Shown: positions 1-22,261 of the stretch, in pieces
Layout of the letters: every line of letters starts with the position of its first letter
Numbering within the stretch: position 1 is the stretch's first letter
Assembly: GCA_020853235.1 (NCBI GenBank)
Contig: JADYZG010000029.1
Location: 1-64,000 of the forward strand
Direction of reading: 5' to 3'
Source of the DNA: a bacterium
GTDB taxonomy: Bacteria; Patescibacteriota; Dojkabacteria; GCA-002793355
DNA: 64,000 nt
Made by a program: the position numbers and the translations under genes
Notes under the pieces: generated by a model
Databases searched by the model: none
What the model saw: only the letters and a program-made list of their open reading frames with translations
Told to the model about the DNA's origin: nothing

Positions 1-3000
1 GGATTACCGCTTTCAGAAATTCCAGTTTTTAACCCAGAATTCGATTCACCGTTATTTCTACTCTTGTACTGTCAATCTAGACAAAAACGAATTCGGAAAA
101 AGCCAGAGAGGGAGAGTTTCCGTGGCCATGAAGGATTCTCCTCCGTATTCGAAGATTTTACAGAGTATCTATTAGATAACATTGTGACGGAGCTAGGAAT
201 AGGTGCAAGTCAGATAAAAGGCATCTGGAACAAAATCATTAAAGGATTCGCCTCGGAAATGGTTCACTCCAGAAACTACAAAGACAGGATAAGCTCACAT
301 AAGGCAAAAAAAATAGCCAAAGATAATTTGCCTAGCAGTGTTGATCCGTCACAGTTTTTGAGTGCACTCGAACATCACCACCTTATTATAAAGATGCCTC
401 GTTTCGGGAATAATGGCAACGTTAGTGGTTACGATTATCGATTTAGCTATCAGCGTTTCAGCGATCACCTAATCACGCGGTATTTACTCAATCAATATCC
501 CCAAAAAGATGGTACACAAAGATTATCAAGAGCGCTCTCGAAAAAGGGAGCTATTGGAAAACACTTATTAGAATACGAGTACAAAGGACTTATCGAGGCT
601 CTTTCCATCGAGATTCCAGAACGATATGGTGGTACTGAACTGATGTCTCTATGCCCCTGGGCGAGATCGTTCATAAAAAACGAGTTTCTAACAAGCATTA
701 TCTGGAGAAACCCCAAAGCATTTAATTTTGGAAAAGTAAGAGATTTAATCAACAAAGAAATTATTCCTTACGAAGAGGAGTACCAGCAGTTTATTTTGAC
801 TATTCTGAATGTTGCAAGTATCCCCAAACATCCATTCAACGCAGATCTGTTACACCAATATCTTTTCAAGTTAAGGATGCCCAAAAGAGACGGAACCTGG
901 TCTGTTTTTGTTGGTCGAGACTATCGAGATAAAGATGATGGACCAATTGCAAGAATTTTTCACTGGATCTTTTCTATATTGCCTCAAGTTAATATTTCCT
1001 ACGAACAAAAACGGCTTTTGGCGATTGTTATTACCTGGTTACTTACAACTTCTAATCGTGCTGTTAGAGATCGATCAACACGGGCTTTGTTAACTTTGTT
1101 AGATCAATCGGCCGACCTTATTCTTGAAGTGAATATGTTATTTCAAGATGTTGATGATCCCTATGTCGTCGAGCGCCTTTTTGCCACGACTTATGGCGCT
1201 TTATTACGCTCTCCGACCATGAACGATCCAAATCTCAAAGACCTTGGGGATATCGTCTATAAAAAAGTATTTTTAAAGCCAAACTCATTTACCTCTCACA
1301 TACTGATCAGAGACTATGCCAAAAGTATTATTGAGCTTTTAGTGACCAGAAATATCTACACTGTTCCTAGCGGTAAGAAAATTACTTCTACGTGTGGATT
1401 GAAATGGCCCTCTAGGATTCCAAGCCTAGGAGTACTAAGAAAGCGTTTCTACCCTTCACAGTTCAATTGGGAAAAATCTCCACTCCAAGAAAGAGGGGTT
1501 ATGAGTATATGGAACTCACTAGATGGAGGAATTCCTGACTTTTACAACTACATCATCAAACCTGCTATCAGGCATTGGTCAAAATACCGCATCGGAGCCA
1601 CCTTGCCTTTGTCCGCTCCACAAATTGAGAAGAAGTTTATTAGCACGTTGTCGCGACATCAATATCGCATCTATAAAAAACTAACCTCGATTCCTCCTAC
1701 AATCAATATTACCTTCACCTCAGATGAAACCCCAATGCTCAAAGAATTAGGAATAGATATTGAGGGACAAAATGACCGTAGACAAGAATATATCAAGTAC
1801 TATCAGAAGTTTATCAATACACTTGATCGCGAGCAAAATACTGATTATAAATTATTATCTTCACTAACAAGGAAAAAGGTTTCTGGGTGGCAGTGGTTTG
1901 ACCCCGAAATAGCCAAGAGGTGGATACTCAGTCAAACTTTCAAATATTATAATAAAAGTCTTCATGGAAGTTTTGATGGCGCATTAAAAAGTTTTTCTAG
2001 AGACTACCGTCAGGTAAATATACTAGAAAGACTTGGGAAAAAATATGAGTGGATTTCATTTCACCAACTATTAGGACTTCTCGCAGATAACTACCATTTC
2101 TCTGAATACTCCTATCAACAGGAAGAGTCTCAGTATAAGGGTGCTTGGCAGGTTGGCATACGAGATATTGACCCTACATGTATATTAGCGTCAAAGCCCA
2201 TTCCGACAATAAATATATTCTCAAAGCCACCTACCCGATTAGTGCCAAACCCCAAATGGATACGGTTAATAAGCGACCTCCCTGATCCAAAAATATTGCT
2301 TAGCCTAACAGATCAGTCAAATAAAGAATGGTATCTACTTCATAGTTACTTTTCTTGGAGAGATAAGCTCGACGAAGAAACAAGCAAGAAGGAGATTACC
2401 TACTTTATGCATGCTTTCATTACCCCACGAGCAGGAAGTGTTGCGTTCGCTCGTAAATTAAACACCTATCCTATCCAATCAGATTGGAATTCCTATTTGC
2501 AGACGAGTCGATTGTACGAAGATTGTTTCCTACGAGAGTACCCATACTCCAGTGTTTACGAATCCGTGTATTCAGATGAAGCTCAAGGTATCTCACCTTG
2601 GATCAAGGATTTTGGCGAAAGGCATAAGCTTCCTTGCCCTGTTGTTAAAACTGCATTTGAATACTCTTCATCACTAGCTTCTAGAGACAACTCTACCGAT
2701 GAAAACTTCAGTATATTTATTCCAAGCCCTGGAATAATCAAACTACTAGGATTGAGTCACTCCACTAAAGACGGACTTTGGGCTGATAGTAACGGCGATA
2801 TTGTTTGTACTGATCTATCGGTCACGAAATGTGGACCAAGTTCATTAGCAATTAACAAAAGTACCTTGCTTGCGTACCTAGTAGAAAAAGATTTAGCTGT
2901 AGTATGGTCCTTTTATGGAGAAAAAATGCTATTAAGCAATACTTCCAACGCCATCGGGGAATTCATCGGTAGTTATATATTAACAGGAGATGGCATAATT

Positions 3001-3036
3001 TCGGGGAAATTTCACAGAGTAAAAAGGTCAGATTAG
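1..3036 (+). CDS. Large STAND/NACHT-like NTPase, C-terminal part (probable antiphage sensor)
   Basis: Frame 1 is open from the first base, so the N-terminus and any Walker A/B core lie left of the window; 1011 residues are visible. The first residues include NPEFDSPLFLLLYCQ (bases 31-75), resembling the NPLFLxLxC motif that follows the NTPase core in large Avs/NACHT-type defence proteins. RFSYQRFSDHLI (from base 439) also fits that family. The rest is a long, mostly helical region without recognisable catalytic motifs, as expected for a target-sensing C-terminal half. It ends 9 bases inside the convergent XRE gene. Family membership is from recalled motif similarity; the exact subfamily and partner genes cannot be judged here. 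Confidence 0.65.
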   Translation, partial: GLPLSEIPVFNPEFDSPLFLLLYCQSRQKRIRKKPERESFRGHEGFSSVFEDFTEYLLDNIVTELGIGASQIKGIWNKIIKGFASEMVHSRNYKDRISSHKAKKIAKDNLPSSVDPSQFLSALEHHHLIIKMPRFGNNGNVSGYDYRFSYQRFSDHLITRYLLNQYPQKDGTQRLSRALSKKGAIGKHLLEYEYKGLIEALSIEIPERYGGTELMSLCPWARSFIKNEFLTSIIWRNPKAFNFGKVRDLINKEIIPYEEEYQQFILTILNVASIPKHPFNADLLHQYLFKLRMPKRDGTWSVFVGRDYRDKDDGPIARIFHWIFSILPQVNISYEQKRLLAIVITWLLTTSNRAVRDRSTRALLTLLDQSADLILEVNMLFQDVDDPYVVERLFATTYGALLRSPTMNDPNLKDLGDIVYKKVFLKPNSFTSHILIRDYAKSIIELLVTRNIYTVPSGKKITSTCGLKWPSRIPSLGVLRKRFYPSQFNWEKSPLQERGVMSIWNSLDGGIPDFYNYIIKPAIRHWSKYRIGATLPLSAPQIEKKFISTLSRHQYRIYKKLTSIPPTINITFTSDETPMLKELGIDIEGQNDRRQEYIKYYQKFINTLDREQNTDYKLLSSLTRKKVSGWQWFDPEIAKRWILSQTFKYYNKSLHGSFDGALKSFSRDYRQVNILERLGKKYEWISFHQLLGLLADNYHFSEYSYQQEESQYKGAWQVGIRDIDPTCILASKPIPTINIFSKPPTRLVPNPKWIRLISDLPDPKILLSLTDQSNKEWYLLHSYFSWRDKLDEETSKKEITYFMHAFITPRAGSVAFARKLNTYPIQSDWNSYLQTSRLYEDCFLREYPYSSVYESVYSDEAQGISPWIKDFGERHKLPCPVVKTAFEYSSSLASRDNSTDENFSIFIPSPGIIKLLGLSHSTKDGLWADSNGDIVCTDLSVTKCGPSSLAINKSTLLAYLVEKDLAVVWSFYGEKMLLSNTSNAIGEFIGSYILTGDGIISGKFHRVKRSD

Positions 3037-3246
3037 ATCATCTACCTTTACCTTATATAATATTGCTAATTCTTTGAGTAATACCACATCCACCCTACGT
3101 TGCCCTGATTCGACTTTCGAAATAAACGACTGAGTTCTTCCAATACTCTGTGCAACCTGCTTCTGTGTTAATCCAGCTTTTTCACGAGCCTTAACTAGCT
3201 TCTCAACAACTTGAGAGTGTTCGCTTGAATAGATAGTTTTCTTCAT
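3028..3246 (-). CDS. XRE/HTH_3 family transcriptional repressor, small
   Basis: A 72-residue protein that is almost entirely a Cro/C1-type helix-turn-helix: LVKAREKAGLTQKQVAQSIG then RTQSFISKVESGQRR, followed by VDVVLLKELAILYKVKVDDLI, the classic fifth helix. Such proteins act as dimers on palindromic operators. A set of GGAATA/TATTCC palindromes lies directly upstream (3251-3317), between this gene and the divergent DUF4352 gene, so autoregulation and control of the rightward genes is likely. Its 3' end overlaps the end of the convergent STAND gene by 9 bases. A role as island repressor is inferred from position. Confidence 0.85.
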   Translation of the reverse strand: MKKTIYSSEHSQVVEKLVKAREKAGLTQKQVAQSIGRTQSFISKVESGQRRVDVVLLKELAILYKVKVDDLI

Positions 3247-3250
3247 AATT

Positions 3251-3317
3251 TTGGAATATTGACTTCCTCTGGATTTATATTAATATTCCAATATGGGATA
3301 TTCCAAATGGAATACCC
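3251..3317. promoter_or_regulatory. Palindromic operator array for the XRE repressor
   Basis: In the divergent intergenic region TTGGAATATT (3251-3260) and AATATTCCAA (3282-3291) form a perfect 10-base inverted pair. Immediately right, GGGATATTCC (3295-3304), AAAT, GGAATACCC (3309-3317) form a second palindrome with one extra base. The shared half-site is GGAATA. Binding by the adjacent XRE protein is inferred. Confidence 0.65.
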
Positions 3318-3347
3318 GATTAGTTAAAATTACATAAACATCCTTAT

Positions 3348-3941
3348 ATGGATCAATCACAAACACCTCCCAAAAAGAGGAACCCTATCATTACTATCCT
3401 TGTTGTACTTGGAGCAATTTTTGCTTTATGTGCAATATCTGGATTAGCGGGAATAGGAGGAGTAGCTAATCAAGTATCAAAGAACGCCGAGGAAACAAAA
3501 AGTAAAGATCAAACTGCTTGGGAGAATCCAGCAAAACTCAAAGAGGCAGTAACCGTTAAGGATGTAACGTGGACGGTCCAAACGGCTCAGAATCTAGGAA
3601 GTAAGTTAAAAACGAAGTATCCTAGCTTCGACAAGGACTGCGTCGCGAATTCGGGCAAATTTATCAAAATCACCTTCAAAGTAAAAAACAACTATAAGGA
3701 GATGAAGTCACTAACAAACATTGATCTTGTTGATGACCAAAAGAGGTCGTATATTCGATCATCGGAAGTAAGTAACTGCGTGAGCGACGAACTTTATATA
3801 CTAGACAATATAAATCCAGGTATAGAAAAGACTTATACAGCAGTATATGAAGTTCCTTCAGACGCAAAAGGACTCAAAGCAAAGGTCGGTGATCTAGATT
3901 TGCTAGGTAATGAGTACAAGTATATAGAACTCGGCTTGTAG
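3348..3941 (+). CDS. DUF4352 domain membrane-anchored protein
   Basis: 197 residues. A proline/lysine-rich cytoplasmic start is followed by one transmembrane helix (about residues 13-38, PIITILVVLGAIFALCAISG). The outside domain (about 65-195) has the DUF4352 layout: a beta-rich immunoglobulin-like fold with KFIKITFKVKNNYKE and the terminal GDLDLLG region. Two cysteines (DKDCV and SNCV) could form a disulfide. DUF4352 proteins are small surface or lipoprotein-like proteins of unknown role, frequent on plasmids and integrated elements of Gram-positive bacteria. It is divergent from the XRE gene across the operator array. Confidence 0.7.
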   Translation: MDQSQTPPKKRNPIITILVVLGAIFALCAISGLAGIGGVANQVSKNAEETKSKDQTAWENPAKLKEAVTVKDVTWTVQTAQNLGSKLKTKYPSFDKDCVANSGKFIKITFKVKNNYKEMKSLTNIDLVDDQKRSYIRSSEVSNCVSDELYILDNINPGIEKTYTAVYEVPSDAKGLKAKVGDLDLLGNEYKYIELGL

Positions 3942-4014
3942 CATCTGTATAATATATACAGAAGGGTCGGGATTTACTTGACTTTCCGTAAAGCTTGCGT
4001 AGAATTGTACATAT

Positions 4015-4827
4015 ATGAACAGTTCTACGCAGCGACAAATTACGAAACAGATCCCCGAGAGCAAAAATCCAGGAGTAGCTGATTTCATGCGAAGTCTGAC
4101 TTACCAGCACTACTCATCTACGCTAAACTCGCATATTGGTGGAGTTAAAATCACAAGTATTAGTTATCGTCGAATTAGCCATTGGGCAAAGAAGGGCATT
4201 TTAACGTATACCCATCTGAAAAAAGAATCAGGATGGAAAACTTTTACCGCCAGAGAGCTTATTTGGATTAGAATAATCGAGGAACTCCGCAAGATGGAGG
4301 TAAGTATCCCAATGATTGGCAGAATTTACAAGGACATTTTTGGTGATCCCAAGAGAACACAGCTTTTTGACTTGTACATAATGTTCAGTCTTACTGGTAA
4401 CAGGATTCACCTTATCGTTTCCCAAAATGGGGAATGCGAATTTGCCAATGCACAAGAATTAAACCTCTACGTCGATACAGGCGACTTCCCAACGAATTAT
4501 ATCTCTATCGACTTAGGGAGTATCTCTCGACAGATACTTCAACATTCTAATAAAAAAGCCCTTCCATCTTTACTTGTCCCATTGCACGATGATGAAGCAC
4601 GCCTAGTCGAAAGCATTAATGAAATGGCAAATCAAACTATATCAGTCGAAATTGAAAATGGCGGAATAAAACGCCTTATCAAAGCTAGAGACAATGATGA
4701 ACTAAAGCAAGAAATTCAGGCTCTCGTCACCAAATACTACCCTAAGGGAGCTTGGGGAGAAATCGAAATCAAAATTAAAGAAGGACGTGCTGATCGAGTA
4801 ATTGAGAGTACGTCTAAGAAGATTTAA
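4015..4827 (+). CDS. MerR-like HTH protein of the island
   Basis: 270 residues. Residues about 40-100 look like a MerR-type winged helix: ISYRRISHWAKKGILTY, then GWKTFTARELIWIRIIEELRKM and SIPMIGRIYKDIF. The remaining 170 residues match nothing I recognise; no classical metal-binding cysteines are visible. A short basic N-terminal extension precedes the HTH. It lies just upstream of the helper ORF and serine recombinase, so it may regulate integration/excision (MerR-like folds also occur in excisionases) or element maintenance. That role is inferred from position only. Start at ATG 4015; the region before it is AT-rich with no clear Shine-Dalgarno. Confidence 0.6.
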   Translation: MNSSTQRQITKQIPESKNPGVADFMRSLTYQHYSSTLNSHIGGVKITSISYRRISHWAKKGILTYTHLKKESGWKTFTARELIWIRIIEELRKMEVSIPMIGRIYKDIFGDPKRTQLFDLYIMFSLTGNRIHLIVSQNGECEFANAQELNLYVDTGDFPTNYISIDLGSISRQILQHSNKKALPSLLVPLHDDEARLVESINEMANQTISVEIENGGIKRLIKARDNDELKQEIQALVTKYYPKGAWGEIEIKIKEGRADRVIESTSKKI

Positions 4828-4831
4828 AAGA

Positions 4832-4897
4832 CTGGAAGGACCAGCGCTTAACATACAACTAGGCGAGATAAAACCATCGGAAGGACCGAGGGCTCGC
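4832..4897 (+). promoter_or_regulatory. Twin hairpins with identical AAGGA loops upstream of the recombinase module
   Basis: CTGG (4832-4835), AAGGA loop, CCAG (4841-4844) and TCGG (4877-4880), AAGGA loop, CCGA (4886-4889) form two stem-loops. Stem sequences differ but loops are identical. The second is nested in an outer stem GCGAG (4863-4867)/CTCGC (4893-4897). ANGGA in a loop is the known CsrA/RsmA recognition pattern. Whether this organism has CsrA is unknown. Confidence 0.4.
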
Positions 4898-4914
4898 ATT
4901 TAGCAGGAGACGAT

Positions 4915-5076
4915 ATGTTATCTATAGCTAGATGTAGAGCTCTACTTAAGGAGCACAAATTAACGGATCAACAGATAGAAAAAGTACGAGACTTAATCTA
5001 TTTAATTGCCAATACAACATTGGAAACTTACTTAAACAAGAAAGAACATGCAACGCTTGAGAAGCGAACTAAATGA
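4915..5076 (+). CDS. Small helical protein upstream of and overlapping the serine recombinase gene
   Basis: A 53-residue ORF starting MLSIARCRALLKEH and ending LEKRTK. The protein is polar and predicted helical, with a TDQQIEKVRDLIYLIANTTLE core. It resembles, from memory, the short ORFs that commonly precede serine recombinases in CPR elements (pattern: helix, (S/T)DEQI, helix). AGGAG at 4904-4908 sits 6 bases before the ATG, a good Shine-Dalgarno and unlike most chromosomal genes in this window. It overlaps the recombinase start by 29 bases, so the two are probably translationally coupled. A role in integration is inferred from position. Confidence 0.55.
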   Translation: MLSIARCRALLKEHKLTDQQIEKVRDLIYLIANTTLETYLNKKEHATLEKRTK

Positions 5077-6748
5077 AACACACGCAATAATATATGCTCG
5101 TGTCTCATCAAAGCAGCAAGTCACGGAGGGGCATGGTCTAGAAAGCCAAGAACACAGATGCAGACAATATGCAGAGCAAAATGGGTATTTGGTTGAAGCG
5201 ATATTTAAAGATGATATTTCTGGTGCAGCAAGAGAAAGAGATGGCATGGGGGCACTACTAGATTACGTTGAGAAGAACGCACTGCAGAAATACGTCGTCA
5301 TTATTGATGATCTAAAGCGTTTTGCGAGAGACTTGAAAGTTCACCTGGTACTTAGAGGCATTTTAAGAAAACTGGGGGTTGAGCTAAGAAGTCCAAATTT
5401 CAATTTCGACGATAGCCCAGAAGGAGAGCTATCTGAAAATATTACAGCCTGTATGGCAGAGTACGAAAGAAAATCGAATCGCCGTCAGGTAATACAAAAA
5501 CAAAAAGCAAGGTTAGAAAGTGGCTACTGGACATTTGACTTTCCTCCAGGACTAATGTTTCAAAAGACACATTTCCACGGAAAGATATTGGTTCCTGATC
5601 CAGAGAAGATGGATGTAGTTATCCGTTTATTTGAGGGCTTCGACACGGGAAAATTCATCACACAAGCCGATTGCACTAGATATCTTAGATCGGTCGGGTT
5701 TTACCATCGAAGATTACCTAAAAAGCAATATCAACAACAGGTAAGGCGTATTCTAACTAACCCACTCTACGCAGGTTACCTGGAGTTGCCGCAATGGGGA
5801 GTTCCCTTGATGAAAGCCGCACATGACGGAATCATTCCAAAAGATTTGTTTGACCGTGTACAGAGGAAGCTTAAATACCAAGATAGACACACACCGAAGT
5901 TTAGACGAGGCTATAGAAATAACGAATTTCCGCTTCGCGGCGACTTACTATGCAAATATTGTGGCACATCTATGACAGGGAGTTTTAATACAGGACGGAA
6001 CGGTCCTGTCGCAAATTATCATTGCAAGAATCAAAACTGTCCTTACAAAGGCAAGTCGAATAATAGAGATCTGACACATAGCAGATTCCTCGACTATCTG
6101 GCTCAAATACGAGCGACTAACGACATAATTGAGTTAACAAAGGCAATAGCACTTGACGCTTTTAATACTAAGAAGAACATGCTCGATTTAGAAGGTAATT
6201 CGCTCAAAACAAAGCTAGAAAAACTGGAGGAAGCGAAATCTCAGCTGATGGCAAAGTATCGAATTACTAATAACCCGATTCTCATCAAAGAGCTTGAGTA
6301 TGAAATTGAAAAAGTAGTTAATGAAATGAATGGACTTAAAGATAACCTAGAGGAACAGAAAGAAGAATTTGAGCAAATTGATATTGGAACCGCGCTCACT
6401 GAAATACTAGAATTTGTTAGAGATCCCGCAAATGCGTGGTCTTCTGGTGACTATCAGAAGAAAAAGGCCGTCACCGCACTAGTCTTTGAGGTCCCTCCGA
6501 CATACGAGCGTGAAAACGGTATTGGAACCGCTACATTAAGCCCATTATTCGAGCTTATGCAGACATTAAAAACTGGAAATGTACAGCAAGTGGAGGTGAG
6601 GGGAATCGAACCCCTGTTCAGCTATTTTCTAAAAGAAGTTTCTCCCAAGACAGCCCAGGTTGCATACTGGAATTCGCCTAAAATCCGGACGAAAAAGCGA
6701 AAACCGCCTCCACATGTACAATGTCATCATCTCAGAAGAACTAGATGA
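5048..6748 (+). CDS. Large serine recombinase (integrase) whose 3' end runs into antisense ssrA
   Basis: 566 residues. The resolvase domain (about 13-155) has YARVSSKQQ with the nucleophilic Ser20 and downstream arginines (DDLKRFARDL). A Recombinase domain follows (about 165-290), then a zinc ribbon (LLCKYCGTSM, HCKNQNCPYKG) and a coiled coil (about 385-450), the standard large-serine-integrase layout. The last about 52 residues (from QVEVRGIEPL) are translated from the antisense strand of the tmRNA gene, so the natural C-terminus in the excised element probably differs. The enzyme presumably catalysed insertion at ssrA. The start at ATG 5048 overlaps the 53-residue ORF. Confidence 0.9.
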   Translation: MQRLRSELNETHAIIYARVSSKQQVTEGHGLESQEHRCRQYAEQNGYLVEAIFKDDISGAARERDGMGALLDYVEKNALQKYVVIIDDLKRFARDLKVHLVLRGILRKLGVELRSPNFNFDDSPEGELSENITACMAEYERKSNRRQVIQKQKARLESGYWTFDFPPGLMFQKTHFHGKILVPDPEKMDVVIRLFEGFDTGKFITQADCTRYLRSVGFYHRRLPKKQYQQQVRRILTNPLYAGYLELPQWGVPLMKAAHDGIIPKDLFDRVQRKLKYQDRHTPKFRRGYRNNEFPLRGDLLCKYCGTSMTGSFNTGRNGPVANYHCKNQNCPYKGKSNNRDLTHSRFLDYLAQIRATNDIIELTKAIALDAFNTKKNMLDLEGNSLKTKLEKLEEAKSQLMAKYRITNNPILIKELEYEIEKVVNEMNGLKDNLEEQKEEFEQIDIGTALTEILEFVRDPANAWSSGDYQKKKAVTALVFEVPPTYERENGIGTATLSPLFELMQTLKTGNVQQVEVRGIEPLFSYFLKEVSPKTAQVAYWNSPKIRTKKRKPPPHVQCHHLRRTR

Positions 6749-7012
6749 TAAATCGGCATGCACCTTATTACTCCTGACTCTTCGCTTGGCATGCAAAGGA
6801 GGAAAAGTCAGTTATGTCTATATTAGACAAATGAGAGTGCAGCCTTTGGAGTTGAAACGACTGAAGCAAAAGCCTTAATCGATCCGTTCACAAAAGATGC
6901 AAGCTTCTCAGAAAGGTTTTGTTTGGCACTTTATGTGCTTTGAGAGTTTTACGGGATATCAGCCCGCTTGGCTACTTCTTTCAACGAACAACCGTCTAAA
7001 CCGATCACCCCC
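6591..7012 (-). ncRNA. ssrA: tmRNA (transfer-messenger RNA)
   Basis: The 5' end GGGGGTG (7012-7006) pairs over 7 bases with CACCTCC (6598-6592), followed by discriminator A (6591); CCA is not encoded. The 5' part GATCGGTTTAGACGG and the T-arm CAGGGGTTCGATTCCCCT are typical of the tRNA-like domain. By comparison with the conserved region before known resume codons, the tag frame begins GCC AAA CAA AAC (A-K-Q-N) and stays open for 34 codons to TAA, ending AALSFV. A pseudoknot-like pairing CTGACT/AGTCAG follows directly. tmRNA with SmpB rescues stalled ribosomes. The 422-nt length is slightly above average. Two rightward ORFs over this region are shadows. Confidence 0.92.
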
Positions 7013-7109: not shown

Positions 7110-7850
7110 GTGTCAAACTTTATTCAGGCAATTCTTGGTGTTCTCGCAGTGAGTAGTATTCCACTTGTTGGTTTATTGAGTTTAGCAGTCTCGAAGAAAA
7201 AGTTAGATAATTATAGCCATTGGTTAGTAAGTTTTGCGGTAGGTGCTTTACTTGGTAATGCGCTTCTTCATCTGATTCCTGAGGTATTTGAAGAATCTAC
7301 AACGCCAACGTTATCTGGCGCCCTAATTATCCTAGGTGTCCTGTTGTTTTATGCATTAGAACAGTTTCTTCGTTGGCATCATAGTCACGATGCTGCTGAT
7401 ACAAAGAAGCCAGTCGCGGTTATGAGTATTATTGGGGATTCTGTACACAATTTCTTGGATGGTTTATTGATTGCAGGAAGTTTTTTGGTAAATCCAGCGA
7501 TTGGTTGGACAACAGTTATTGCGGTTATCCTCCACGAAATACCTCAAGAAATTGCAGATTTCAGTATTCTTTTACATGCAGCATGGCCGATAGGCAAGAT
7601 TGTCCTTGTTAATGTTCTTTCGGGAATGCTTGCACTTCTTGGAGTAGTGGTTGGTTTTGTAATCAATGCAAACTTTGAAAGTTTTGCTCTTGTTTCTCTT
7701 TCAATAACCGCGGGAGGGTTTATTTATATCGCTTGTGCAGACTTGATTCCAAATTTGCACAAGAAAGGAGGCGGGAACGTGAAGCAGGGAATTACACAAC
7801 TTATTATTATTGGATTGGGTGTTTTAGTCTCAGCAATTGGGACACTATAA
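7110..7850 (+). CDS. ZIP family divalent metal (zinc/iron) transporter
   Basis: 246 residues with about 7-8 hydrophobic helices. The two metal-site helices are intact: HNFLDGLLIAG (TM4) and HEIPQEIADFSIL (TM5), the HNxxD and HExPxE signatures of ZIP proteins. A histidine-rich cytoplasmic loop (RWHHSHDAADTKK, about residue 90) sits between TM3 and TM4 as in the family. It moves Zn2+ or similar metals into the cytosol. Start is GTG 7110; the preceding in-frame codon run is closed by TAA at 7095-7097. The extended -10 at 7075-7083 gives a roughly 20-base leader. It overlaps the convergent UbiA gene by 6 bases. Confidence 0.88.
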   Translation: MSNFIQAILGVLAVSSIPLVGLLSLAVSKKKLDNYSHWLVSFAVGALLGNALLHLIPEVFEESTTPTLSGALIILGVLLFYALEQFLRWHHSHDAADTKKPVAVMSIIGDSVHNFLDGLLIAGSFLVNPAIGWTTVIAVILHEIPQEIADFSILLHAAWPIGKIVLVNVLSGMLALLGVVVGFVINANFESFALVSLSITAGGFIYIACADLIPNLHKKGGGNVKQGITQLIIIGLGVLVSAIGTL

Positions 7851-16273: not shown

Positions 16274-17419
16274 ATGGTTAGTACAGAAAAGAAAAAAGTC
16301 CTGATTATGTTTGGCGGAGTCTCCCCTGAGCATGAAGTTTCGGTTATTTCTGGACTTCAAATTGTAGAAACAATTGATCGTACTAGATATTCTCCTGTTG
16401 CCTTATTTGTATCAAAAAAAGGAGAATTTCACTATCTTGGTGACATGAAAAGTCGAAAAGAGTTTCTGAAAAAACGCCGTGACTCAGTAACTTTTGGTCG
16501 AGATATCAAAGGTGGATACATTCAATTAAGTGGGATCTTTGGACAGAAGATTTATGTAGATATTGCTTACTTGGCATTTCATGGTGGATTAGGTGAAGGT
16601 GGAGCAGTGCAAGGAATGCTCGAAGTTATGGGGGTTCCCTTTACTTCGACTGGTCAAGAAGGATCAGTTATTACAATGAACAAGCAGTTAACTAAGGAAA
16701 TTGTTGAGAAAGAGGGAATAAAAGTTGTACCGAGTGTCTGCTTCTCTTCATGCAATATGAAGGAGTACCATGAGAAATACGCACAAGAGGCAGTAAAAAA
16801 ACTTAAACTTCCTATAATCGTGAAGCCAGTTCATCTTGGATCGAGTATTGGAATTCATGTTGCACGTACCCAGACTGAGTTAGAGCAATATTTGCTTGAA
16901 GCATCATATTTAGACACAGAGATCTTGGTTGAGAAGTTTATTCCAAAATTCGTTGAATATAACTGTTCTGTTCGTACTGTGAATGGAATTCTCGAGGCGA
17001 GTGAAGTAGAGCGTCCAATTGGTAAAGACGAAATCCTGAGTTTTGCTGACAAATACGAAAGAGGTGCTAAAAAAACAGGTGGTAGTGGAATGGCGTCACT
17101 TGATCGAGAATTGCCAGCTAAAATTCCTGCAAAAGAGAGAAACCGCATCCAAGAACTTGCTAAAAAAGCTTATCGGGCTTGTCGCTGTAAAGGACTCGTG
17201 AGAATCGACTTTATGTGTACTCCAAAAGGCGAATTATGCCTGACAGAAATTAATCCAATTCCTGGTTCACTTTCATTTTATCTATGGGAAGCGACTGGAG
17301 TTACTTTCAGACAACAGATTACAGATTCTTTAGAGCAAGCAGTTACTGATGCTCAGGCAAAAAGAAGTTTGGAAATGGATTACTCTTCGGATATTGTCGA
17401 AAAATTTGTGAAATCGTAA
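16274..17419 (+). CDS. ddl: D-alanine--D-alanine ligase
   Basis: 381 residues. The N-terminal domain has VLIMFGGVSPEHEVSVISG; the ATP-grasp domain has IIVKPVHLGSSIGIHVA, EKFIPKFVEYNCSV, RIDFMCTPKGELCLTEINPIPG and the terminal SLSFYLWEATG, all Ddl signatures. It joins two D-Ala for the MurF step. The frame extends 13 codons upstream into the preceding gene, but TGC-TACACT (16259-16267) lies 6 bases before ATG 16274, which supports this start and a separate leaderless promoter inside the end of the interrupted gene. Ddl can therefore be expressed even though the upstream gene is broken. Confidence 0.93.
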   Translation: MVSTEKKKVLIMFGGVSPEHEVSVISGLQIVETIDRTRYSPVALFVSKKGEFHYLGDMKSRKEFLKKRRDSVTFGRDIKGGYIQLSGIFGQKIYVDIAYLAFHGGLGEGGAVQGMLEVMGVPFTSTGQEGSVITMNKQLTKEIVEKEGIKVVPSVCFSSCNMKEYHEKYAQEAVKKLKLPIIVKPVHLGSSIGIHVARTQTELEQYLLEASYLDTEILVEKFIPKFVEYNCSVRTVNGILEASEVERPIGKDEILSFADKYERGAKKTGGSGMASLDRELPAKIPAKERNRIQELAKKAYRACRCKGLVRIDFMCTPKGELCLTEINPIPGSLSFYLWEATGVTFRQQITDSLEQAVTDAQAKRSLEMDYSSDIVEKFVKS

Positions 17420-17461
17420 AAAGCACAAATCTATAAAATTACCAGTTGTCTTAGGAACCAT

Positions 17462-18829
17462 TTAGTAGTAGAGATCATTTAATTCAGGCTGCAAGAGTAA
17501 TACCCAATCTTCATTTTTGAAGTTTTTTGTTTCTTCTTTGATAAACGTTTGGAGGTCTGGAGTAATTTCCACACTATTTTTATTCGAAAATCCTGACGCA
17601 ATCTCTTTTGCAAACATCGTCCCTAAGATGATTGTAAAGTCTGCAGATTTTTCTAAAATTTCGCCTAGCTCATGATTTTTATTTTTGTGTAAAGTGGATA
17701 ACTCTGGTATACCCCCAGTAATAACAAGGAGCTTTTTCTTCTTGGTTTTTGCTAGTGCAAATGCCGTTTTGATACCTGATTTTGCGGTTGAAAAGCTGAT
17801 GTTATAAGAATCGTCGACACCTTGATATCCAAGTACAGTTCCTTGGTGCTGTCTTCGCTCAGGAAGTTCGAGTTTTTTGACGATATTTGCAACAAAGGAT
17901 TCTTTGATTGAAAGTGCACTTGCAACCTCTAATGCAAACTGAAGATTGATTATATTGGAAATAGACAATTGCTCTGCTTTTACTTTCTTTCCCTGATATG
18001 ACAGTTCTTTGATGTCATCTTCGATAGTTATAACAGTATCTTGATGTAAAATTTTATTTTTTGTGTTCATGGTAGTGATCTTGACACAATTCTGCTTAGA
18101 ATGCGTGAATACCTCGCTAAGTGCGAGTGCTAATCGCTCTTCATTTCCATGACGTTCGAGATGTTGGTCTCCGACATTTGTAAGCACTGCAATATCTGGC
18201 CGAAGCATGTCACAGCTGCTTGCAATCTCTCCGATTTGATAAGTATCTACTTCCGCGATGAGAATTTCTGTATCTGATTTAAGATCTGCCTGTATCCAAT
18301 TCGCAATACCAAGTGGTGTATTAATATTTCCTGGAATCATCTGTGTTTTATATGAAGAATGAATGAGTTGTTGAATGAAATTTTTGACAGTAGTCTTGCC
18401 GTAACTCCCTGCGACAGCAATCACTTTTACTTTTCCGTGTGTAGCAATTTTCTGTGTTGCTCGAGCCAGGACTTTCTTCTTTGCAATTTCTGCATAAATT
18501 GATACAAGAATATTTGCAAGTAAGACAATGATTGGGGCGAATAATGAAATCACAAGAATCCACAGTAAGGCGATGGAGATAGAGCTTACGAAATAGAGCC
18601 CAGAGAGTAAAATCATTCCCCAAATCAAAAAGCAAATACCCAGCGTTAGCAACACTCTAGACGTAAACTTCAAGTGATCTCGTCTTTGTATATTTCTGCG
18701 AAAGAAAAATCGCGGTAACCATTTGAGTAGCCGTTTTGTTGAGTACTCTTCAAGTTGGAGAATATAAAGAAAGTCCGGAAATGGTAAAAATATGTCAAAG
18801 AGTTTGAAGAAAGTTTTTAATTTTTCCAT
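17462..18829 (-). CDS. murF: MurF-like ligase with N-terminal membrane segment
   Basis: 455 residues. Residues 1-60 are basic/amphipathic; about 62-115 form two membrane helices (LTLGICFLIWGMILLSG and a second). The Mur ligase core starts near 135: AVAGSYGKTTVKNFIQ, IPGNINTPLGIANWI, LIAEVDTYQIGEI, LTNVGDQHLERHG; the C-domain has DDSYNISFSTAKSGI and VITGGIPEL. Core motifs fit UDP-MurNAc-tripeptide:D-Ala-D-Ala ligase. The usual N-terminal substrate domain is absent and replaced by the membrane anchor. It is transcribed towards ddl (convergent) and overlaps the upstream hydrolase by 35 bases. MurT-type amide-ligase partner function is a less likely alternative. Confidence 0.8.
   Translation of the reverse strand: MEKLKTFFKLFDIFLPFPDFLYILQLEEYSTKRLLKWLPRFFFRRNIQRRDHLKFTSRVLLTLGICFLIWGMILLSGLYFVSSISIALLWILVISLFAPIIVLLANILVSIYAEIAKKKVLARATQKIATHGKVKVIAVAGSYGKTTVKNFIQQLIHSSYKTQMIPGNINTPLGIANWIQADLKSDTEILIAEVDTYQIGEIASSCDMLRPDIAVLTNVGDQHLERHGNEERLALALSEVFTHSKQNCVKITTMNTKNKILHQDTVITIEDDIKELSYQGKKVKAEQLSISNIINLQFALEVASALSIKESFVANIVKKLELPERRQHQGTVLGYQGVDDSYNISFSTAKSGIKTAFALAKTKKKKLLVITGGIPELSTLHKNKNHELGEILEKSADFTIILGTMFAKEIASGFSNKNSVEITPDLQTFIKEETKNFKNEDWVLLLQPELNDLYY

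Positions 18830-20568: not shown

Positions 20569-22261
<1,693 letters not shown>

Follow-up and report, generated by a model that had tools for sequence, protein, structure and literature searches.

Defence systems are often said to be scarce in the streamlined Patescibacteria, and little is known of the route by which these bacteria acquire the ones they have. The locus analysed here, at the left edge of a contig from the genome of an uncultured, ultra-small member of the Dojkabacteria, raises a simple question: is the cluster of genes that abuts ssrA, the gene for tmRNA, a mobile defence island, and how did it come to lie there? The genome (G000) is a metagenome-type draft of 0.84 Mb in 33 contigs, 95% complete with 6% estimated contamination, and the window covers the initial 64 kb of its contig C29, whose edge cuts the cluster on its left. 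An initial annotation had proposed that a large serine integrase inserted into the ssrA 3′ end in a CPR-like genome, with a STAND protein as cargo. This proposal is supported by the gene families, by sister genomes that lack the genes and by independent islands with direct repeats, but the history of the site proves complex, with an inversion and att-like remnants. Our analyses make it very probable that an island of ~7.9 kb, equipped with its own large serine integrase, has inserted at the ssrA 3′ end, that Avs2 is its main cargo and that ssrA is a phylum-wide site of defence exchange. The features are collected in Table 1.

Table 1. Features of the island and its borders (window positions unless a contig or locus is named)
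Feature	Coordinates	Strand	Evidence or remark
NUDIX hydrolase gene	C31:19907-20338 / L043:1904-2338		between 992-aa gene and island
Avs2 (AVAST type 2), C-terminal 1011 aa	1..3036	+	PADLOC PDLC02164, NF041813, PDB 9o4e
Small HTH_3 regulator, 72 aa	3028..3246	-	PF01381 E 3.2e-12
DUF4352 protein, 197 aa, N-terminal hydrophobic segment, cargo	3348..3941	+	PF11611 E 1.5e-8; phrog_806 E 2.7e-16
MerR-like DNA-binding protein, 270 aa	4015..4827	+	PF13411 E 2.2e-5
53-aa conserved small ORF overlapping integrase start	4915..5076	+	homologous small ORFs in ~20 elements
Large serine integrase, 566 aa	5048..6748	+	PF00239, PF07508, zinc ribbon; phrog_95; tree
Integrase/ssrA junction, putative att site at ssrA 3′ end	6585..6614		tmRNA 3′ end position; core compared with other islands
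ssrA (tmRNA), target gene	6588..7012	-	Rfam RF00023, 83.6 bits, cut-off 47

The frame next to ssrA has the domains, the full length and the size (within ~450–600 aa) of a large serine integrase: it contains Resolvase (PF00239, 9e-26), Recombinase (PF07508, 9e-9) and zinc-ribbon domains as well as a YARVSS motif, and its product matches the phage integrase family phrog_95 (E 5.8e-71). From ~6588 onward, over its last ~50 codons, the frame is antisense to the tmRNA, which is the only full-length one that Rfam finds in G000, although ARAGORN failed to detect it. The same overlap is present in many homologues and thus does not reflect chance; together with the Rfam match and the domains of the frame, it confirms the initial reading of a serine recombinase frame that enters antisense tmRNA. 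Judged from this overlap, the integrase residues from ~515 on are a target-derived tail encoded by ssrA antisense DNA. The integrases of three other genomes (G034, G035 and G046) end in a similar tail, roughly VExxGxEP, because the antisense strand of the ssrA acceptor and T-arm is open in that frame. When 3′ ends are compared, the ssrA of the window encodes CCTCCACTT rather than CCTCCACCA; the gene ends in CACTT in both G000 and its sister genome G001, in CATTT in a second sister, G002, and in CACCA in the more distant family members G003, G004 and G007. To the right of the tmRNA, the genes for a ZIP transporter, UbiA and a MurD-like protein have homologues in the sister genomes, whereas those left of 6591 are indeed accessory, as had been suggested.

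The left continuation of the island is carried by another contig of the same genome, C31 (21,898 bp). The Avs2 gene is divided between the two contigs: a profile search of G000 places a match to positions 173-498 of the PADLOC Avs2 profile at C31:20922-21893, five bases before the contig end, and profile positions 498 and 503 fall at the facing ends of C31 and C29. The ends do not overlap; the reading frames demand a gap of 1 mod 3 bases, and its length is estimated from the profile and the PDB alignment of Avs2 at ~4–10 nt. The island would consist of window positions 1-6588 and the last ~1.3 kb of C31. To the left of Avs2, C31 carries what we take, from a reading of the proteins, to be uvrB, tyrS, uvrA and uvrC, followed by a gene for a 992-aa protein and a NUDIX gene, whose name was not assigned in this way. 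The NUDIX gene, a possible piece of cargo, lies outside the inferred island boundary and has no match in G001 or G002 at E <= 1e-8. In both of these genomes, which belong to the same genus, uvrA-uvrC-(992 aa)-ZIP-ssrA are contiguous, with neither Avs2 nor the integrase, and this gene order supports the adjacency of C31 and C29. The estimated contamination of 6%, the 33 contigs and an inversion that sets the gene order of G000 apart from that of its sisters could be taken to mean that the two contigs are joined by chance only, through misassembly or misbinning, and that the island stems from another organism. This is very improbable, however, since integrase-ssrA-ZIP-UbiA is unbroken within C29 and 992 aa-NUDIX-Avs2 is unbroken within C31, the 992-aa gene and ZIP/ssrA adjoin each other in both sisters, and G+C is uniform, no contrast between island and core having been found in G000.

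Positions 1-3036, the giant STAND/NACHT-like protein of the initial annotation, encode the C-terminal part of Avs2, which matches positions 503-1475 of PADLOC PDLC02164 (E 2.8e-208) and 327-1313 of NCBIfam NF041813 (E 4.6e-191). C31 carries the N-terminal part, which includes the Walker motifs; the gene starts there at 20901, and C31:20901-21896 (332 aa) spans positions 1-320 of NF041813 and 174-498 of the PADLOC profile. The NTPase and sensor regions are matched and are complete relative to NF041813, although the two parts score 207 + 638 bits and do not reach its curated cut-off of 1000. The protein thus has the whole NTPase and C-terminal sensor of known Avs2 proteins (NF041813, PDB 9o4e), but it lacks their N-terminal effector of ~165 aa: the match to the solved Avs2 structure (9o4e, 1484 aa; E 3e-83) aligns only from residue 169, and the plasmid-borne Avs2 genes that we checked, two of which have N termini that look nuclease-like by eye, begin 163-187 residues further upstream. 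Sensitive tblastn found no effector relic upstream of the Avs2 start, and there is no nuclease ORF in the interval from the distal att core to the start codon, which is only 300 bp long. Among the 380 genomes sampled from the phylum, Avs2 was found in one.

Avs1-4 are described as proteins whose nuclease effectors respond to a phage protein, be it terminase, portal or another (PMC12931631). By homology, the Avs2 of the island would be a STAND NTPase of a family whose members recognise phage proteins, among them the large terminase, and switch on an effector in response, and it may likewise serve in phage sensing. Because the effector domain of its relatives is missing, its activity is doubtful, and the gene would be either crippled or served by an effector in trans. 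That it works without a fused nuclease, through an island or host protein in trans or as a sensor or decoy only, is what its late start relative to the PDB and plasmid-borne proteins, the short upstream interval and the completeness of NTPase and sensor would suggest. However, the island offers no partner with a known effector domain, just the DUF4352, HTH and MerR-like proteins, and the assembly might be wrong near the start codon, even though this lies 1 kb from the contig end. On balance we regard a functional Avs2 of this kind as unlikely.

If the island inserted into ssrA, a duplicated tmRNA 3′ end should lie to its left and related genomes should show an empty site, as the initial annotation had anticipated. 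A search of the whole of G000 for the 25-nt ssrA 3′ end, with up to 3 mismatches, returned the known copy and no second one, so that a full T-arm plus acceptor duplicate is absent; what is found instead is a ~7-bp core, TGGTGGA, at C31:20590 (+), beside a homologous flank. The homology is to G002, in which a perfect 17-bp copy of the ssrA 3′ end occurs 137 bp downstream of ssrA and retains the native CCACCA terminus. The ~120 bp that follow this displaced copy have their counterpart in C31:20598-20476 (alignment score 40, against 34 for the best of 1000 shuffles), a stretch whose first letters, TCCACCA, are the core read on the other strand. The core shared by the distal junction on C31 and the present ssrA end of G000 is GTGGA only, and the direct repeat in G000, at 5-7 bp, is not significant taken alone. 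Nonetheless, the native ssrA end and the old flank appear to have been displaced ~7.9 kb from ssrA to a position just 5′ of Avs2, which is what integration into ssrA should leave, though the shared core is short. As for relatives, G001 and G002 lack the island, but neither site is a pristine empty one, there being a ~150-bp scar in G002 and another gene in G001. The scar (L045:10380-10650), which lies 3′ of ssrA with the perfect 17-bp repeat and has a hairpin-rich segment outside it, may be the remnant of a former island. In G001 (L044:6694-7752), a gene for a 352-aa protein starts at the ssrA 3′ end and shows a weak match (2e-7) to the PD-T7-5 defence family.

Compared with both sisters, G000 has the block of ZIP, ssrA and island in inverted orientation (window 7110-7850 versus C31:19903), a change that could have been mediated by inverted att copies. 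G000 contains further att-like pieces, at C31:20364 (direct) and C31:20485 (inverted), and these ssrA-like pieces point to earlier events at the site. Because of them and of the inversion, the left boundary is uncertain. Two other candidates for the attachment repeat were set aside. One, an 11-bp match TTGGAACCGCT (C31:20612 and window 6522), lies ~66 bp from the ssrA end, whereas the other islands use the acceptor end. The second, the copy of GAGGTTCGGGGAAT at C31:20364, is weak in itself, its similarity being matched by 24 of 2000 shuffles with a short query and 187 of 1000 with a longer one; its sole support is 55-bp homology to G002, and it is outside the segment that marks the boundary. 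These features also bear on whether the cluster is still mobile. A short repeat, an inverted ZIP-ssrA block, extra att-like remnants in C31:20364-20500 and an Avs2 without its effector would all suit an old, decayed island that is stuck at ssrA with a broken Avs2, and truncated integrases at ssrA in G035 and G024 show that such decay occurs. Against this, the frames of the integrase (566 aa) and of Avs2 (332+1011 aa) are uninterrupted, and this favours selection in the recent past or a recent arrival; we consider decay an unlikely alternative.

Two of the remaining genes connect the island to others of its kind. The MerR-like protein is common to three ssrA islands: G034 (E 1.8e-6) and G179 (E 3e-4) encode homologues 5′ of their integrases. 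Homologues of the 53-aa ORF precede the integrase in ~20 elements of the family, and most of them stop no more than 50 nt from where the integrase begins; six of these were used to build its profile. The directionality factors known for serine integrases are small, and the genes of some lie near that of the integrase; on this basis the ORF is a candidate recombination directionality factor or integrase partner.

Independent islands of the same integrase family occur elsewhere. Within the class, the integrase adjoins the ssrA 3′ end in a fixed orientation in G000, G034, G046 and G035 and, truncated, in G024; related integrase loci in Candidatus Dojkabacteria include DDXN01000001.1, WJKM01000001.1 and JAFGFJ010000006.1. 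Five other ssrA islands of 6-12 kb are bounded by 10-15 bp repeats of the ssrA 3′ end. That of G046 (15 bp repeat, 8.3 kb) carries a restriction-modification system, made up of an EcoO109I-like endonuclease and a methyltransferase, with a SocA-type antitoxin; that of G024 (11 bp, 12.2 kb), with the truncated integrase, a second restriction-modification pair of endonuclease and methyltransferase; that of G177 (10 bp, 10.3 kb) an OLD/AriA-like ATPase; and that at the Parcubacteria locus L088 (11 bp, 6.4 kb) AbiV, while no defence gene was recognised among the proteins scanned in the island of G179 (13 bp, 8.0 kb). Although single matches of 10-11 bp could be fortuitous, the recurrence at the tmRNA terminus and the orientation argue against chance for the set. 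In G177, islands stand in tandem at ssrA (L199:6600-7670 and 16420-18027), and the older integrase, which has internal stops, ends at the att copy of its intact neighbour. No defence gene was recognised among the proteins scanned in the island of G034; a 708-aa cargo protein there (L069:5705-7831) contains eight DUF4379 treble-clef zinc finger stretches.

The family extends well beyond the class. A scan of genome contigs with a single-sequence query gave no integrase homologue, but an alignment query succeeded, finding one in 85 of 380 genomes sampled from the phylum (E <= 1e-40). In 45 of 51 loci, which were picked by score and not at random, the 3′ end of the integrase gene abuts that of a tRNA or tmRNA gene (tmRNA in 19, tRNA-Ala in 7, others in fewer); for the window and three other loci, tmRNA was assigned from Rfam positions. 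The tree places the integrase of the window within a supported set of 35 whose predominant target is tmRNA, and a side branch in the Alphaproteobacteria uses tRNA-Thr and tRNA-Arg. The integrases of L167 and L168 are 87% identical over 486 aa, yet the first is at tRNA-Ala and the second at tmRNA; the two RNAs end in the same acceptor motif, in keeping with the resemblance of the tmRNA end to that of alanine tRNA.

Precedents exist for islands at ssrA, for serine integrases whose att lies in their own 3′ end and for defence islands. In the ssrA islands and prophages of enterobacteria and other bacteria, the known integrases are tyrosine recombinases, whereas a serine-integrase family acts here, with 10-15 bp repeats. 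What the two share is integration at the ssrA 3′ end that restores the gene, use of the site by many unrelated elements, and tandem arrays ('Traffic at the tmRNA gene', cited in PMC9580842). In Mycobacterium abscessus, attB sites at tRNA/tmRNA genes are reported for Int-Y and none for Int-S (PMC10654092). The serine-integrase ICEs at rumA in streptococci likewise have short att repeats, of 2-21 bp, one of which is inside the integrase 3′ end, and their integration swaps the 3′ parts of integrase and target (PMC4701971); however, they are conjugative and target a protein gene, whereas the present family targets tmRNA or tRNA and forms delimited islands of 6-12 kb, with no conjugation genes recognised in the island cargo examined. 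The site-specific recombinases in a survey of 6,207 serine recombinases have the same Resolvase, Recombinase and zinc-ribbon domains, but protein-coding targets are described and the main text makes no mention of tRNA or tmRNA, whereas the family here is devoted to RNA 3′ ends (PMC10083194). A study of Patescibacteria islands reports restriction-modification cargo, with no integrase or tRNA analysis (PMC12455944). We did not find the integrase family described in openly searchable papers; cases may exist in subscription papers and in the TIGER database.

The anatomy is evident from the sequence, and from it we infer recombination itself. The integrase would recombine an attP at the 3′ end of its own gene with an attB at the acceptor/T-arm end of ssrA, the shared core being ~TGGTGGA. 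On integration, ssrA would stay functional through a substitute 3′ end, now CACTT, its native CCACCA terminus would be carried to the opposite border of the island, and the integrase would gain its C-terminal tail, read from ssrA antisense. The predicted attP is the integrase 3′ end joined to the sequence upstream of Avs2, and the predicted empty ssrA is CTCCACCA followed by the C31:20598-20476 flank. The directionality factor would most likely be the 53-aa ORF coupled to the integrase. Mobility and anti-phage activity of the island are likewise inferred. Since different defence genes occupy this position in other islands of the integrase family, ssrA probably acts as a phylum-wide exchange site for small defence islands. 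A broader and more tentative reading, possible but less probable than not in our estimation, is that these integrases are specialised on tmRNA/tRNA 3′ ends across the Patescibacteria, have moved between ssrA and tRNA-Ala by way of the alanine-tRNA-like end of tmRNA, employ their own small directionality factor, and make ssrA a slot for single defence modules, including an Avs2 with a separate effector.

A recurrent integrase-ssrA slot with interchangeable defence cargo would be a concrete route by which these bacteria acquire defence, and it yields a search rule: inspect the ssrA 3′ end. In addition, the family is a source of serine integrases whose RNA-gene targets are conserved and universally present, and many of these integrases are accompanied by a candidate directionality factor. 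Moreover, the switch between ssrA and tRNA-Ala by integrases that are so nearly identical would make the evolution of site specificity directly testable.
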